64,000 nucleotides of DNA. It comes from Chloroflexota bacterium (lineage in GTDB: Bacteria > Chloroflexota > Dehalococcoidia > JACPQK01). A program made the translations under genes and the position numbers. Of this stretch, positions 17,933 through 44,431 are shown in pieces. The stretch spans positions 40,971 through 104,970 of the forward strand of contig JACPQM010000064.1 of the NCBI GenBank assembly GCA_016190505.1, in the 5' to 3' direction. The notes below the pieces were generated by a model. It saw nothing but the letters and a program-made list of their open reading frames with translations, was not told where the DNA came from and ran no database searches. Within the stretch, counting starts at the first letter, position 1; every line of letters starts with the position of its first letter.

Positions 17933-18000
17933 GGGCGGACGGCCGTTCGCCCCTACAATATGACCCATCTGACCGATCGGACTGATCCGTCCGATCGGTC
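17929..18000. repeat. Family-B palindrome at the stop codon plus a GACCGATCGG palindrome (family F)
   Basis: 17929-17956 is a GTAGGGGCG...CGCCCCTAC palindrome containing the TAG stop of the upstream gene. 17971-18000 has arms GACCGATCGGA / TCCGATCGGTC; relatives of the latter occur at 32941-32975 and 51608-51637. Confidence 0.85.
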
Positions 18001-18033
18001 AGACGAACAATTGCCAGGAAAGGGGCGCTGATC

Positions 18034-18666
18034 ATGAGGGAAGACCTGGCCACGGCGCTGGCCGACCTCCAGGAGGAGGCGGCGGTGCGCATCGTGAGAG
18101 AAAGGCTGGATGGCGGCGAGAACCCTTTGAGCATCCTGGCCGATGCCCGCCGGGGGATGGAGACCGTGGGCCGGCGTTTCGCCAGTTGCGAGTACTTCCT
18201 CCCGGACCTGGTCTACTCCGGTGAGATCCTGAAGCAAGTAAGCGAGATGGTCAGGCCCCGCATCAGCCAGGGCCTGAAGACCGAGCGGCTGGGCAAGGTC
18301 GTGATGGGCACCGTGGAGGGGGACATCCACGACATCGGCAAGGATATCGTGACCTTCATGCTGGACGTCAACGGCTTTGAGGTCTTCGACATAGGCGTGG
18401 ACGCGCCGCCCGACAAGTTCGTAGACAAGATCAGGGAGACCGGCGCGACCGTGGTCGGGATGAGCGGGCTGTTGACCCTGGCCTTCGACTCCATGAAGGC
18501 CACGGTAGACGCGATCGCCGAGGCTGGCCTGCGGGACCAGGTGAGGATCATGATTGGCGGCCCCCAGGTGGACGAGCAGGTCCGCAAGTACGCTGGCGCC
18601 GATGCCTACGGGCAGGACGCCATGGCGGGTGTGGCCCTGGCCAGGCAGTGGACCGGAGTCCAGTGA
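18034..18666 (+). CDS. Corrinoid (B12-binding) protein of a methyltransferase system
   Basis: 210 residues, the usual size of MtbC/MttC/MtaC-type corrinoid proteins. The helical cap domain occupies about residues 1-85; the Rossmann B12-binding domain carries the lower-axial His motif D97-x-H99-x-x-G102 in GTVEGDIHDIGKD, followed by GFEVFDIGVDAPPDKFV, VVGMSGLLTLAFDSM and IMIGGPQVDEQ. It accepts a methyl group from the MT-I enzyme upstream and delivers it to a second methyltransferase, plausibly the one at 29086. The ATG has GGAAAGGGG upstream. Confidence 0.93.
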   Translation: MREDLATALADLQEEAAVRIVRERLDGGENPLSILADARRGMETVGRRFASCEYFLPDLVYSGEILKQVSEMVRPRISQGLKTERLGKVVMGTVEGDIHDIGKDIVTFMLDVNGFEVFDIGVDAPPDKFVDKIRETGATVVGMSGLLTLAFDSMKATVDAIAEAGLRDQVRIMIGGPQVDEQVRKYAGADAYGQDAMAGVALARQWTGVQ

Positions 18667-18676
18667 CTGGGACGCC

Positions 18677-19387
18677 ATGACCGTCGTTCGCGGCATTGCC
18701 TTAGACCTCGATACGCAGGAGGTCCTGCGCCGCGCGGGAGTGAGGCAGCCCTCGGGACCCAGCGCACCGGTCGTGGACGCGGTTGCTCACCTGATGGCCC
18801 AGGTCGAGGCCGAACGTCTTCTCAAACCCGCCGTGGCCTGCGAGACCTGCGCAGTTGCCGAGGTGGAGCCTGATCACGTGCGGCTACAGGGCGGAACTAT
18901 GCTTCTAGGGCCGCTCTTGGCTTCGACGTTGTCTAGCGCCACGGAGCTGGCCGTGGCTGTGGCCACCGTCGGTGGCGACTTGGAGGAAGAGGCCTCCCGG
19001 TGTTTCCGCAAGAACGAGGCATTGCGGGGGCTGCTACTGGACGCCATCGGCAGCGCCGCCGTGGACTCCCTGACACAGAAGGTCGCCTCCCTGGTCTCTG
19101 AGGCTGGGGCCACGAAAGGTTATCAGGCAAGTTGCCCTGCTAGCCCAGGCATGACGGGCTTTCCCCTCTCGGAGCAGCGGGAAGTCCTCCGGCTGGCGCA
19201 CGCGGACGAGATCGGTGTGCAGGTTACAGGCTTTGGGGTGATGGTGCCTCGGAAGTCGGTGTCCCTGGTCTTCGGCCTGGGGCCACACGTGGCTGGCCGG
19301 GGCACGACGCGCGGCTGCGCCTACTGCACTTTGAACCGCACCTGCGCGCAGCGGCGGCTGAAGCGCACCGATGCACTAATCGAGTGA
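18677..19387 (+). CDS. MetH activation-domain-like protein of the corrinoid system
   Basis: 236 residues from the ATG at 18677, 11 bp after the corrinoid-protein stop; the frame is open upstream only as an overlap. It resembles stand-alone vitamin-B12-dependent methionine synthase activation domains: AERLLKPAVACETCAV, TELAVAVATVGGDLEEE, DAIGSAAVDSLTQ, and a SCPASPGMTGFPLSEQREVLRL segment like the SAM-site region, followed by MVPRKSVSLVFGLG. Unusual for the family is the Cys-rich tail GCAYCTLNRTCAQRR, which could bind metal. Probable role: interaction with or reactivation of the cobalamin protein. The tail sequence is duplicated at 20110. Confidence 0.72.
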   Translation: MTVVRGIALDLDTQEVLRRAGVRQPSGPSAPVVDAVAHLMAQVEAERLLKPAVACETCAVAEVEPDHVRLQGGTMLLGPLLASTLSSATELAVAVATVGGDLEEEASRCFRKNEALRGLLLDAIGSAAVDSLTQKVASLVSEAGATKGYQASCPASPGMTGFPLSEQREVLRLAHADEIGVQVTGFGVMVPRKSVSLVFGLGPHVAGRGTTRGCAYCTLNRTCAQRRLKRTDALIE

Positions 19388-40975: not shown

Positions 40976-41227
40976 CTACTGTGTTCCACCGCTGCCAGGA
41001 CTTCCTGGCTCATCAAACGGCCCGTGACGAGCCCGATACCAGTCCGGGTCCAGGTCCGTCTTCCCAAACATGCTTCTGAGTTCCCCAATCCTGGCCTTGC
41101 GCTCACGCTCGATCAACTCTTGAGCCGCGCGGCGCAACGCATTTGCAGCGTTTTTCTCTCCCGTGAACATGAGAAGGTCGTTTACGAGAGTATCGTCCAA
41201 GTGCAAAGAGATTCGCCTACCCATCAT
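40976..41227 (-). CDS. VapB-like antitoxin, second copy without an intact toxin
   Basis: 83 residues. MGRRISLHLDDTLVNDLLMFTGEKNAANALRRAAQELIERERKARIGELRSMFGKTDLDPDW aligns in plan with the VapB at 41610 (TGEK-x-A-x-ALRRAAEE, IGELRSMFGKTDL against IDELRAMLGKIDL). The tail after DPDW (ARHGPFDEPGSPGSGG) is not VapB-like and may be read-out after a deletion. Starts 4 nt inside the end of vapC. Confidence 0.8.
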   Translation of the reverse strand: MMGRRISLHLDDTLVNDLLMFTGEKNAANALRRAAQELIERERKARIGELRSMFGKTDLDPDWYRARHGPFDEPGSPGSGGTQ

Positions 41228-41613
41228 GCACCTCCCACCTCGTGCAGCCTTAGCCCGGGTATGCGCTGGAAGTGCTGGTCCAGAGCAAACAATGCGCAGT
41301 CATTCTCAATACACACAGCAGCCACCGCCAAGTCCGTAAGCGGGACCCCTTGCCCCTGATGCCGTAGTTTGTATGACAACTCACCGGCTAAGGTCCAAGT
41401 AGACCAATCGTCTTGCAGGAGAGGAAGACCTCCCAGCAGGCTCTTCAGGCGCTCCAACTCACTTTCCGAGCGAGCACCCTGCAAGACTTCGGCCAGCACA
41501 ACCCCTGTGATCGCCACGTCTCCTTCCGCAAGAAGCAAGTCCATCTCCCGAACCACTGGTGAACCTGGTCGGCGAAAAGACTCTATCCAGACCGAGGTGT
41601 CCGCAACGATCAT
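41224..41613 (-). CDS. vapC: VapC PIN-domain toxin
   Basis: 129 residues, complete. PIN acidic residues are in place: D5 (MIVADTSVWI), E42 (LAEVLQGAR), D94 (PLTDLAVAAV) and D112 (ALDQHF). VapC toxins are Mg2+-dependent RNases often cutting tRNA or rRNA. Overlaps vapB by 4 nt upstream and the second vapB by 4 nt downstream. Confidence 0.93.
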   Translation of the reverse strand: MIVADTSVWIESFRRPGSPVVREMDLLLAEGDVAITGVVLAEVLQGARSESELERLKSLLGGLPLLQDDWSTWTLAGELSYKLRHQGQGVPLTDLAVAAVCIENDCALFALDQHFQRIPGLRLHEVGGA

Positions 41614-41831
41614 TCGTTGTCTCTCATTTCCTCCAGTTCCAACTCCTCCAACTCACGCCAGTTGTCCACCAGGTCTATCTTGCCTAACATGGCCCGCAAC
41701 TCGTCTATGCGCTTGCGGCGGATGTATTCTTCGGCGGCCTTGTTCAGAGCCCTGCTCTTGCTCTTCTCGCCTGTCAGCTCGACAAGCTCCTCCAGCAGCT
41801 TGGGGTCAATGTCCACAGTTGTGCGCATCAT
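41610..41831 (-). CDS. vapB: VapB antitoxin
   Basis: 73 residues. MMRTTVDIDPKLLEELVELTGEKSKSRALNKAAEEYIRRKRIDELRAMLGKIDL is the type II VapB pattern (ribbon-helix-helix start, then toxin-binding helix), with GGAGGGAG before the start. It pairs with the overlapping vapC. Confidence 0.9.
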   Translation of the reverse strand: MMRTTVDIDPKLLEELVELTGEKSKSRALNKAAEEYIRRKRIDELRAMLGKIDLVDNWRELEELELEEMRDNE

Positions 41832-41859
41832 CTCCCTCCATCACATGAATGCATCATTA

Positions 41860-43026
41860 TCATACATCATTTCCGCGCACCATTTCCACGAACCGCTCGA
41901 ACAGGTACATGTTGTCCCAGGGGCCCGGCGAGGCCTCGGAGTGGTACTGGATGGAGATTATGGGCAGCTCCTGGTGGCGCAGGCCCTCCACGGTGCCATC
42001 GTTCAGGTTGAGGTGGCTCACCTCCACACCCGGCGGTAAGCTGTCGGCGTCTACAGCGTAGCCGTGGTTCTGAGCGGTGATATAGACCAGCCCAGTCGCC
42101 AGGTCCTTTACCGGATGGTTGGCCCCCCTGTGGCCGAACTTGAGCTTGTAGGTGCGCCCGCCGAAGGCCCAGGCCAGCATCTGGTGGCCCAGGCAGATGC
42201 CCATGACGGGCAGCTTGCCCACCAGCGCCCGCGTGGTCTCGGTGACATAGCCCAGTAGGGCGGGGTCTCCAGGGCCTGGGGATAGCACCACGCCGTCCGG
42301 CTTAAGCGCGAAGATGTCCTCGGCGGAGGTGGCAGCCGGGACTGCGGTCACCGAACAGCCCAGACGGCGCAGCGAGCGCAGGATGTTGAACTTGAGGCCG
42401 CAGTCCAGGGCCACGATGTGAGGGGCGGGGCCCTCTCCTCGTAACCCCCTCTCCGAGACGGAGAGGGGGGGCATGGTTTTCTGGGACACGGCCCCGCTTG
42501 GGCGTGTCGGGCCGTTGTCTGACCAGGTGTACGGCATCTCGGTGCTCACCTGGCGCACGAAGTCAAAGGAGTCGTAGCGAGGCAGCTCGCGGAGACGGGC
42601 CAGCGCTTGCTCGGCCGTCTCGTCGCAGGTGATGGTGCCCATCATGACGCCCGCCAGGCGCAGGCGGCGGGTAATGGCCCGGGTGTCCACACCGGCGATG
42701 CCGGGGATGCCCTGAGAGGCCAGGAACTCGGCCACCGTGCCCGTGGACTGCCAGTGGCTGGGGGCAGCGCATTCCTCGCGCACCACGAATCCCGACACCT
42801 GGATGCGGCGCGACTCGAAGTCCTCCCGGTTGACCCCGTAGTTGCCGATGAGGGGGTAGGTGGGCACCACGATCTGCCCCGCGTAGGAGGGATCGGTGAG
42901 CATCTCCTGATAGCCGGTCATGGCGGTGTTGAACACCACCTCGCCCCAGGCCCGGCCCTCGGCGCCAAAGCCGTAGCCCTGGTAGACCGAGCCGTCCTCC
43001 AGCACCAGGATGGCGTCCCTAGGCAC
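41860..43026 (-). CDS. carA: Carbamoyl-phosphate synthase small subunit with a repeat-derived insertion
   Basis: 388 residues, GTG start overlapping pyrC by 8 nt. N-terminal domain LVLEDGSVYQGYGFGAEG..., then the class I glutaminase: LSPGPGDP, MGICLGHQMLAWAFGG with the catalytic Cys, and IISIQYHSEASPGP (His and Glu of the triad; Ser replaces the usual Pro after His). It supplies ammonia to CarB. Between the two domains the chain gains about 20 residues (QKTMPPLSVSERGLRGEGP) encoded by a family-A stem-loop at 42445-42469 and flanks. Confidence 0.95.
   Translation of the reverse strand: MPRDAILVLEDGSVYQGYGFGAEGRAWGEVVFNTAMTGYQEMLTDPSYAGQIVVPTYPLIGNYGVNREDFESRRIQVSGFVVREECAAPSHWQSTGTVAEFLASQGIPGIAGVDTRAITRRLRLAGVMMGTITCDETAEQALARLRELPRYDSFDFVRQVSTEMPYTWSDNGPTRPSGAVSQKTMPPLSVSERGLRGEGPAPHIVALDCGLKFNILRSLRRLGCSVTAVPAATSAEDIFALKPDGVVLSPGPGDPALLGYVTETTRALVGKLPVMGICLGHQMLAWAFGGRTYKLKFGHRGANHPVKDLATGLVYITAQNHGYAVDADSLPPGVEVSHLNLNDGTVEGLRHQELPIISIQYHSEASPGPWDNMYLFERFVEMVRGNDV
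42445..42469. repeat. Family-A stem-loop inside carA
   Basis: Perfect 10-bp arms CCCCCTCTCC / GGAGAGGGGG around GAGAC, in frame at the interdomain junction of CarA. Same family as 717, 4515, 34243 and 40041. Confidence 0.9.
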
Positions 43027-44431
43027 CGGCCACCTCCACAGCCTTTTGTACCGCGAGCCCGGGGGCAGCGTACGCGATTCCCCCTCCCACTATGGTGGCC
43101 ATGACCCTGCCCTTGAGCCGCCAGCCGGCCAGGGGTGTGTTCTTTCCCTTTGAGGCGAACTGACCGGGGTCTACCGTCCACTCAGCGTTGGGGTCGAAGA
43201 CGGTGACATCGGCAGGGGCACCCACCCGGAGGCTGCCCAGACCCGAAAGCCCCTGGTCCGCCAGTCCCCTTTCGATAATGCGGGCCGGTCCCGAGGTCAG
43301 CCGGGCCACCAGGGTAGGCAGGTCCAGAACGCTGGCATGGACCAGGCCCATCACCAGGCCAAAGGCCGTCTCCAGGCCACTGATGCCCGAGGCCGCCTGG
43401 TCGAACTCGCATAGCTTGTCGGCCAGAGTGTGCGGGGCGTGGTCGGTGGCAATGGCCTGTATCACGCCCTCGGCCAGGGCCTGGCGGAGCGCCTCAACAT
43501 CGGCCTGCGCCCGCAAGGGAGGATTGACCTTGGCGTTGGCGTCATAGGCGCCCGGCCCCAGGGCAGCCGTAATGTCGCCTCCTTTGGGCCCCAGCACCAG
43601 GGCCTCGGTGAGCATGAGGTGGTGCGGCGTGGCCTCGGCGGTGACCGTCCCGACACGTCGGGACTGCTGTTCCCGGCGGACAAGCTCGACAGCGCCCGCC
43701 GTGCTCACGTGCTGGATATGCACATGCGCCCCGGTGAGCTCGGCCAGGGCGATGTCCCGGGCCACGGCCGCCTCCTCGGCGGCGGCAGGCATACCCTTCA
43801 GGCCCAGCCGGTGGGCGAGCGCGCTTTCATTCATGACGCCGCCCGCAGCCAGCGCCGGGTCCTCGCAGTGCTCCAGGACGGGCCGGCCCAGGGCGCGGGC
43901 ATACTCCAGGGCATGGCGCAGCAGGCGGGCATCGGCTACCGGCCGGCCGTCGTCACTGTAGGCGACAGCGCCGGCCTCGGCTAGCTCCCCGAACTCGGCG
44001 AGCTGCTTGCCCTGCTGGCCCTGGGTGACACAGGCCACGGGCAACACCCGCACCGAGCCTTCCGTGCGGGCCTTGTGGAGAACAAGCTCCACGGTGGCCC
44101 GGCTGTCCACGGTGGGCCTGGTGTTGGCCATGGAGCATACGGTGGTGAAGCCACCCCGAGCCGCGGCCCGAGTGCCCGTGGCGATGGTCTCCTTGTCCTC
44201 GAAGCCTGGCTCTCGCAGGTGGCAGTGCAGGTCAATGAACCCAGGACATACCACCAGGCCAGGCACGGAGATAACCGCATTGGGTTTCACGGGCGGCTCG
44301 CCCTGCCCCCACCACTCGATCCGACCGTCCTTGAAGAGCAGACTGCCCACGGCATCCAGCCCTTGGGAGGGATCCAGGAGACGGCCCTCGTGGATGAGCA
44401 GGGTCTTGCCCTCTGCCTGCGTCGGTGCCAT
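43019..44431 (-). CDS. pyrC: Dihydroorotase
   Basis: 470 residues from the ATG at 44431, longer than the ~430 of typical type I enzymes. Metal and active-site motifs: GFIDLHCHLREPGFEDKE, EHCEDPAL, IQHVSTAGAVELV, TAEATPHHLML, and AIATDHAPHT with the catalytic Asp. Cyclises carbamoyl aspartate to dihydroorotate. The segment REQQSRRVGT just before VTAEATPHH is encoded across an 18-bp palindrome (43647-43664), and another stretch (GPKGGDITAALGPGAY) also looks inserted. Confidence 0.95.
   Translation of the reverse strand: MAPTQAEGKTLLIHEGRLLDPSQGLDAVGSLLFKDGRIEWWGQGEPPVKPNAVISVPGLVVCPGFIDLHCHLREPGFEDKETIATGTRAAARGGFTTVCSMANTRPTVDSRATVELVLHKARTEGSVRVLPVACVTQGQQGKQLAEFGELAEAGAVAYSDDGRPVADARLLRHALEYARALGRPVLEHCEDPALAAGGVMNESALAHRLGLKGMPAAAEEAAVARDIALAELTGAHVHIQHVSTAGAVELVRREQQSRRVGTVTAEATPHHLMLTEALVLGPKGGDITAALGPGAYDANAKVNPPLRAQADVEALRQALAEGVIQAIATDHAPHTLADKLCEFDQAASGISGLETAFGLVMGLVHASVLDLPTLVARLTSGPARIIERGLADQGLSGLGSLRVGAPADVTVFDPNAEWTVDPGQFASKGKNTPLAGWRLKGRVMATIVGGGIAYAAPGLAVQKAVEVAGA
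43647..43664. repeat. GTCCCGACACGTCGGGAC palindrome inside pyrC (family D)
   Basis: Eight-bp perfect arms. It sits in frame next to the HH metal motif of dihydroorotase and encodes SRRVGT. Confidence 0.85.

Follow-up and report, generated by a model that had tools for sequence, protein, structure and literature searches.

Palindromic repeats of several families lie in frame in the interdomain linker of carbamoyl-phosphate synthase small subunit (CarA) in Chloroflexota-type genomes

The whole stretch of DNA analysed here (64 kb, referred to as the window) carries on its minus strand carA, the gene for the small subunit of carbamoyl-phosphate synthase, and a palindromic repeat is read through in frame between the two domains of the encoded protein. 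The features of the locus are:

41860..43026, minus strand: carA, carbamoyl-phosphate synthase small (glutaminase) subunit, an open frame of 388 codons with a GTG start.
42412..42534, minus strand: stretch coding for the interdomain linker (residues 165-205, from PYTW up to the residue before ALDCG; CDS bases 493-615), placed by alignment with homologues.
42445..42469, minus strand: copy of the palindromic repeat, with perfect arms of 11 bp and a 3-base loop; it codes for residues 186-194 and the hairpin starts at CDS base 558.
42430..42438, minus strand: a third arm of the repeat, set off from the palindrome by 6 bases and reading GGAGAGGGC on the coding strand; it corresponds to the GGTGAGG of other genomic copies.
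42485..42508, strand not given: possible second, imperfect palindrome in the carA linker, GACACGGCCCCGCTTGGGCGTGTC, seen by eye.

The protein has the CPSase N-terminal domain and a class I glutaminase domain with its conserved catalytic residues, and is thus a member of the CarA family. Pfam families PF00988 and PF00117 are precomputed for P0002, a protein identical to the window CarA, and E. coli CarA in the PDB (1bxr chain B) matches residues 3-384 (E 4e-101). Residues C278, H362 and E364, which we take to be the CarA catalytic triad, are invariant across all 89 of the aligned CarA proteins. Alignment with the E. coli protein, from whose structure we assume the domain limits, placed the insert before the glutaminase part. 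An AlphaFold model of the window CarA, generated from 89 aligned homologues, had a mean pLDDT of 89.9, and its sole run of three or more residues with pLDDT below 50 was residues 185-191, inside the part encoded by the repeat. This model replaced an earlier, poor one made from 36 close homologues (mean pLDDT 67.8).

An initial annotation of this locus had claimed a perfect palindrome with 10-bp arms, read in frame and adding about 20 residues to CarA. The palindrome is present, with arms one base pair longer than claimed, and the carA frame runs across it without a break or a stop to give 388 residues, as predicted by translation. The added length also agrees: the linker has 41-42 residues in the window protein and 19-20 in P0005, a CarA of 80% identity. 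Two further close homologues have longer linkers, of 52-53 residues in P0003 (83% identity) and 73-74 residues in P0004 (80% identity). Judged from the protein sequences, the former is a diverged form of the window insert and the latter consists of other, repeat-like letters. The four proteins form one clade with 99% SH-aLRT. Two grounds for doubt had been named in advance, a broken carA frame and the presence of the same linker in distant CarA proteins. The frame is intact, and among the CarA proteins examined P0003 alone shares the insert, the linkers of the others being shorter or different.

The repeat recurs in the genome from which the window comes (3.23 Mb in 100 contigs, 85% complete). 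Its core 9-mer, CCCCTCTCC, occurs eight times in the window against 1.75 expected, a count reached in none of 100 shuffles. The palindrome with exact 10-bp arms was found at two places in the window and at six in the genome, carA included, and a reversed-pattern control gave none. A relaxed pattern (3 mismatches, 6-base centre) matched 42 genomic places but its control matched 17, and therefore only the exact core was used from these rows; counted by eye among them, exact CCCTCTCCGNNNNCGGAGAGGG stands at 22 genomic places. Many of the genomic copies have the outer arms CCTCACC and GGTGAGG. When ten copies were aligned, the one most like the carA copy was that on contig C7, the shared form being CCCTCTCC followed, after five or six bases, by CCCCCTCTCCGA(A/G)ACGGAGAGGGGG. 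Several of the other genomic copies lie near the ends of ORFs (ORFs covering the repeat, in predicted frames, were listed for 18 loci). With up to 3 mismatches allowed, the possible second palindrome, GACACGGCCCCGCTTGGGCGTGTC, has a single match in the window. An Rfam scan of 41000-44000 returned a single match, below the gathering score and elsewhere in the region (43507-43560), which was taken as chance.

The same family had also been assigned to five intergenic sites in the window. This holds for three of them (34243, 40041 and 61341), which share the CCTCTCC hairpin core, but the sites at 717 and 4515 carry a related, different hairpin with a CTCCCCG core.

Other palindromes were noted in this genome. 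On another contig (G000:C94:7405-8014) at least eight CCTCTCC-type hairpins are packed into 610 bases, with two subtypes alternating in the manner of a tandem array. Two window sites about 150 bases apart, 1776-1805 and 1930-1959, hold perfect palindromes whose arms are 15 bp long and which share CGTAG ends; the core of the second, GGGCGACC/GGTCGCCC, was found again at locus L160, where a weak Y1 transposase match lies about 1.4 kb away. A further palindrome with 15-bp arms, TCTGACCGATCGGAC...GTCCGATCGGTCAGA, lies at 17968-18003, inside the 3' end of the minus-strand ORF 17953-18696.

CarA was then sought in 60 relatives (59 matched), in named genome contigs (80 loci kept of 164) and in 294 genomes of the class (206 matched, with 60 further stretches added). 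A CarA ORF was obtained from 198 of 220 loci, giving 173 distinct core sequences, from which 38 loci of Armatimonadetes and other outgroups were left out of the tree. The 132 related loci come from same-class genomes or from records titled Chloroflexi, Chloroflexota or Dehalococcoidia, together with a few like them. In these 132 the median linker was 18 residues; it had 24 residues or fewer at 106 loci, 25-30 at six and more than 30 at 20. A repeat was recognised in ten of the 26 linkers longer than 24 residues (L005, L035, L036, L047, L066, L130, L133, L134, L135 and L142). The other 16 of these 26 have no recognised repeat, and the linker therefore also lengthens by other routes. One such unrelated route is represented by L064, L065, L068 and L069, whose shared linker is 48 residues long, has a conserved GRARQGGMG-type core and contains no recognised palindrome.

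Compared at the DNA level, the 132 related loci hold six sequence-distinct families of palindromic repeat in frame in the CarA linker, in five family-level groups. The copies were counted in each carrier genome with up to 3, 3, 3, 2 (sister form 1), 2 and 3 mismatches for repeats (1) to (6), respectively:

Repeat (1), CCTCTCC hairpin followed by a further arm downstream: in the window (group f1) and in G096 (f43; nine copies, carA included), decayed in G133, perhaps also in G111, and partial in G085 (f57). The hairpin was found once in G133 and three times in G111, none of these in carA, and had no match in G085, whose carA copy is shortened.
Repeat (2), CATTGCGAGGAGC...GAAGCAATCTC: in G154 (four copies, carA included) and, in a longer form, in G245 (f43; one copy, outside its carA).
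Repeat (3), GTCATTCTGAGCGAAGCGAAGAATCTC, perhaps distantly related to repeat (2): in G279 (f43; 55 copies, carA included).
Repeat (4), GTGTCAGGCTTCAGCCTGACAC: in G206 (11 places, carA included), with a sister form in G173 (four, carA included) and G233 (f59; the carA copy only).
Repeat (5), CCCTGAGCGGAGCCGAAGGG: in G077 (f53; 13 copies, carA included).
Repeat (6), AACAAGGGGTTGCAACCCCTTGTT, part of a perfect palindrome of 34 bp: in G085 (f57; nine places, carA included).

Thus in seven genomes besides that of the window the repeat in carA belongs to a set of 4 to 55 copies. The reversed controls gave no match in the carrier genomes; the one control match, for repeat (5), was in the window's genome. 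The view that the linker of the window CarA is an in-frame repeat of a multi-copy genomic family is supported by these counts, but it was incomplete, as five other families use the same linker in other lineages. A unique single event was rejected for the same reason. Eight repeat strings were translated in all six reading frames, and in each of them three to five frames are without stops; the elements themselves would therefore help in-frame survival.

Two arrangements of repeats were seen beside or within one another. In the linker of L142 (G085) a shortened CCTCCC hairpin is followed directly by the 34-bp perfect palindrome, as though the palindrome had inserted into the hairpin. In G245 (C28:76164-76190) the GTCATTCTGAGCGAAGCGAAGAATCTC repeat has a copy directly adjoining the carA match at its 5' end, and the carA linker there holds another repeat.

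A quick tree made without the linker (147 rows: the 132 related loci, three outgroup loci and 12 proteins) was used to count changes in repeat presence. At least eight changes are needed for 21 carriers in 129 rows, from which 18 long or unclear linkers had been left out, and at least six for the eight carriers that are multi-copy by DNA in 116 rows, from which 13 further insert-bearing rows had been left out; these counts do not separate gain from loss, and the tree leaves 54 of its 144 inner branches open. The nearest thing to an empty site is that of L055, with a linker of 14 residues against 22 in L052 and L054, the carA DNA being 94% identical outside the linker. L055 differs from the other two around the insert as well and is not a clean empty site. 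No target duplication was seen in such comparisons, which offer no clean empty site; for the window copy there is no such site either. L052 (GTCGGGCTGAAGCCCGAC) and L054 (GTCAGGCTGAAGCCTGAC) differ by a change in one arm that is matched in the other, and the palindrome is thereby preserved; the paired change could come from copying of another repeat, template switching or selection.

Perfect palindromes are concentrated in the linker. In 173 carA genes, those with arms of at least 9 bp and a loop of at most 8 number six in 11,361 linker bases and nine in 175,584 other bases (p 1.6e-4), that is 0.53 per kb against 0.051 per kb, ten times denser; the question was posed after the inserts had been noticed, and the six include those of L007 (a linker of normal length) and L015 (an AT-rich linker), which are counted as palindromes only. 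With arms of at least 10 bp there are five in linkers and five elsewhere (p 1.6e-4), and with arms of at least 8 bp the excess is weaker, nine against 44 (p 0.004). When the window's gene is removed, the linker still holds five of 14 (arms of at least 9) and four of nine (arms of at least 10), with p about 0.001 in each case. In L007 the 20-residue linker is spanned by a perfect palindrome with 11-bp arms, CGAAAATCCGGAGCCGGATTTTCG.

The gene pyrC served as a control. Among the 120 closest listed homologues of CarA, insertions of eight or more residues relative to the majority columns occur in the linker only (core columns 177-193 of 379). For PyrC, again among the 120 closest listed homologues, they fall mainly in two loop regions (columns 278-281 and 376-389 of 450) and only singly in other places. 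Repeat-type loop insertion is therefore not special to CarA, and CarA itself is perhaps not special. Some of the 120 PyrC homologues (P0123-P0241) have dihydroorotase loop insertions of 8-24 residues, a few of them with LSKG or LSKD peptides. The initial annotation had also spoken of a second core enzyme, unnamed, hit in the same way. The one candidate compared was pyrC, and it gave no support for this: its palindrome at 43649-43662 adds only 1-2 residues relative to the nearest two of its homologues.

The repeats, their copy numbers, the frame kept open across them, their position and their recurrence can be read directly from these comparisons. Since unrelated repeats stand at the same spot in relatives, it is likely that the linker is a tolerated landing site for mobile DNA. 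Our preferred explanation, which we consider probable, is that short non-autonomous palindromic repeats insert at many sites and that the permissive CarA linker is one in which they survive. The repeat that recurs in the window's genome likely arrived in the carA linker as such an element, insertion being the direction of change that we infer, and its predicted translation would give CarA about 20 additional residues, which would be flexible and presumably neutral. Such repeats probably land in many places, and copies that fell in conserved domains or out of frame would have been removed by selection, while a disordered linker would tolerate them. Wide landing together with a tolerant linker would therefore give six families at one spot, decay with the frame kept open, and different repeats in close relatives. 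The carriers whose genomes are poor in copies of their carA repeat (G233, G133, G111, G245 and G085) count against this explanation. So do the 16 long linkers in which no repeat was recognised, the insertions in PyrC loops, the target duplication and linked mobilising enzyme that were looked for and not seen, and the inability of the tree counts to tell a gain from a loss.

An RNA role for the hairpin is possible but weaker than insertion into a tolerant linker, and we think it improbable. The stem, at the domain boundary, would be kept because it slows ribosomes or tunes the carA mRNA while the first domain folds. The stem of the carA hairpin is predicted at -23.1 kcal/mol, with the third arm included in the folded string. 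When the carA mRNA was folded in 185 sixty-base windows, the stretch that holds the hairpin came out as the most stable (-38.9 kcal/mol, against a mean of -20.6 and an sd of 4.8), and the region folds better than all of 200 shuffles (z -4.83). The paired change between L052 and L054, which preserves the palindrome, would also fit, but it could also be obtained by copying another repeat. Multi-copy palindromes would carry a stem to any place where they landed, two of the repeat families at this site fold weakly (-4.6 and -4.7 kcal/mol), and most relatives have short linkers.

More doubtful is the suggestion that the longer linker is adaptive at the protein level, for example by altering the CarA-CarB contact or ammonia transfer. 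Inserts do persist in related species, as in P0003 and the window, and as in the 35-residue linkers of G096, G133 and G111. The inserted sequences, however, are mutually unrelated and are swapped between close relatives, and the near relatives P0005 and L055 manage without an insert. Just as speculative would be a standing docking port in the Dehalococcoidia CarA linker, used by at least six repeat families that replaced one another and whose hairpins act as translation brakes timing the folding of the glutaminase domain. It is least likely of all that no mobile repeat is involved and that a GC-rich, variable linker is palindromic by chance or through an assembly artefact: the window does come from a fragmented assembly (100 contigs) and long linkers without palindromes exist, but the shuffles and the reversed control of the exact palindrome argue against it, as do the occurrence of P0003, with its diverged form of the same insert, on four other contigs from two sources and the excess of linker palindromes that remains without the window's gene (p 0.001).

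Outside Rickettsia and Wolbachia, separate lineages thus have sequence-distinct, multi-copy repeats in one and the same part of a core enzyme. If insertion is confirmed, the birth of a linker from mobile DNA could be tested directly, since one gene offers linkers that are near-empty, intact, decayed or filled by a different repeat. There is also a warning for annotators: a peptide that a repeat encodes within a conserved protein is not necessarily an annotation error.

Three known classes of bacterial repeat invite comparison. The REPs of the GTAG and CGTC superfamilies are palindromic, 20-40 bp long and mostly intergenic, though sometimes inside ORFs, and two Xanthomonas species have different REPs at roughly one position in recB (PMC3733652). 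The CarA-linker repeats match REPs in size and palindromic form. Unlike GTAG and CGTC REPs, the carA copy has no tag at its end: on both strands of 42419-42496 there is no GTAG, and CGTC occurs once, in the coding-strand loop. The genome (85% complete) gave three Y1_Tnp matches, none with the CCCTCTCC palindrome in flanks of about 1.5 kb, and a RAYT was rejected as the mobiliser on this ground.

Bacterial MITEs are non-autonomous repeats, some of them fused in frame to ORFs (PMC2229807). They carry terminal inverted repeats, frequently have target-site duplications, and are given as about 100-200 bp or as 70-300 bp long. The carA repeat resembles MITEs in being a presumably non-autonomous repeat in frame in an ORF, but at 25 bp (about 40 with the third arm) it is smaller than they are, and no duplication was seen in the comparisons above, which offer no clean empty site.

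In behaviour the carA repeat is like the Rickettsia palindromic elements (RPE). RPE and Wolbachia palindromic elements form several families, both intergenic and in frame inside conserved genes, without stops, and RPE lengths are given as 105-146 bp or about 150 bp (PMC2229807, PMC10969869, PMC4224334). The carA repeat is alike in standing in frame in a conserved gene while further copies lie elsewhere in the genome, intergenic space included. It differs in length, being 25 bp, or about 40 with the third arm, against about 105-150 bp. The CarA-linker repeats as a group also differ from RPE in their size of about 20-40 bp, in belonging to Chloroflexota-type genomes and in the use of one linker of one enzyme by several families across lineages. 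The titles and abstract openings searched, a set with most subscription papers outside its scope, mention neither such repeats in carA nor in-frame palindromic repeats in Dehalococcoidia. What seems to be new is the number of repeat families and lineages that meet at one linker of one core enzyme, and the carA repeat is best read as working like a Rickettsia palindromic element without being one.
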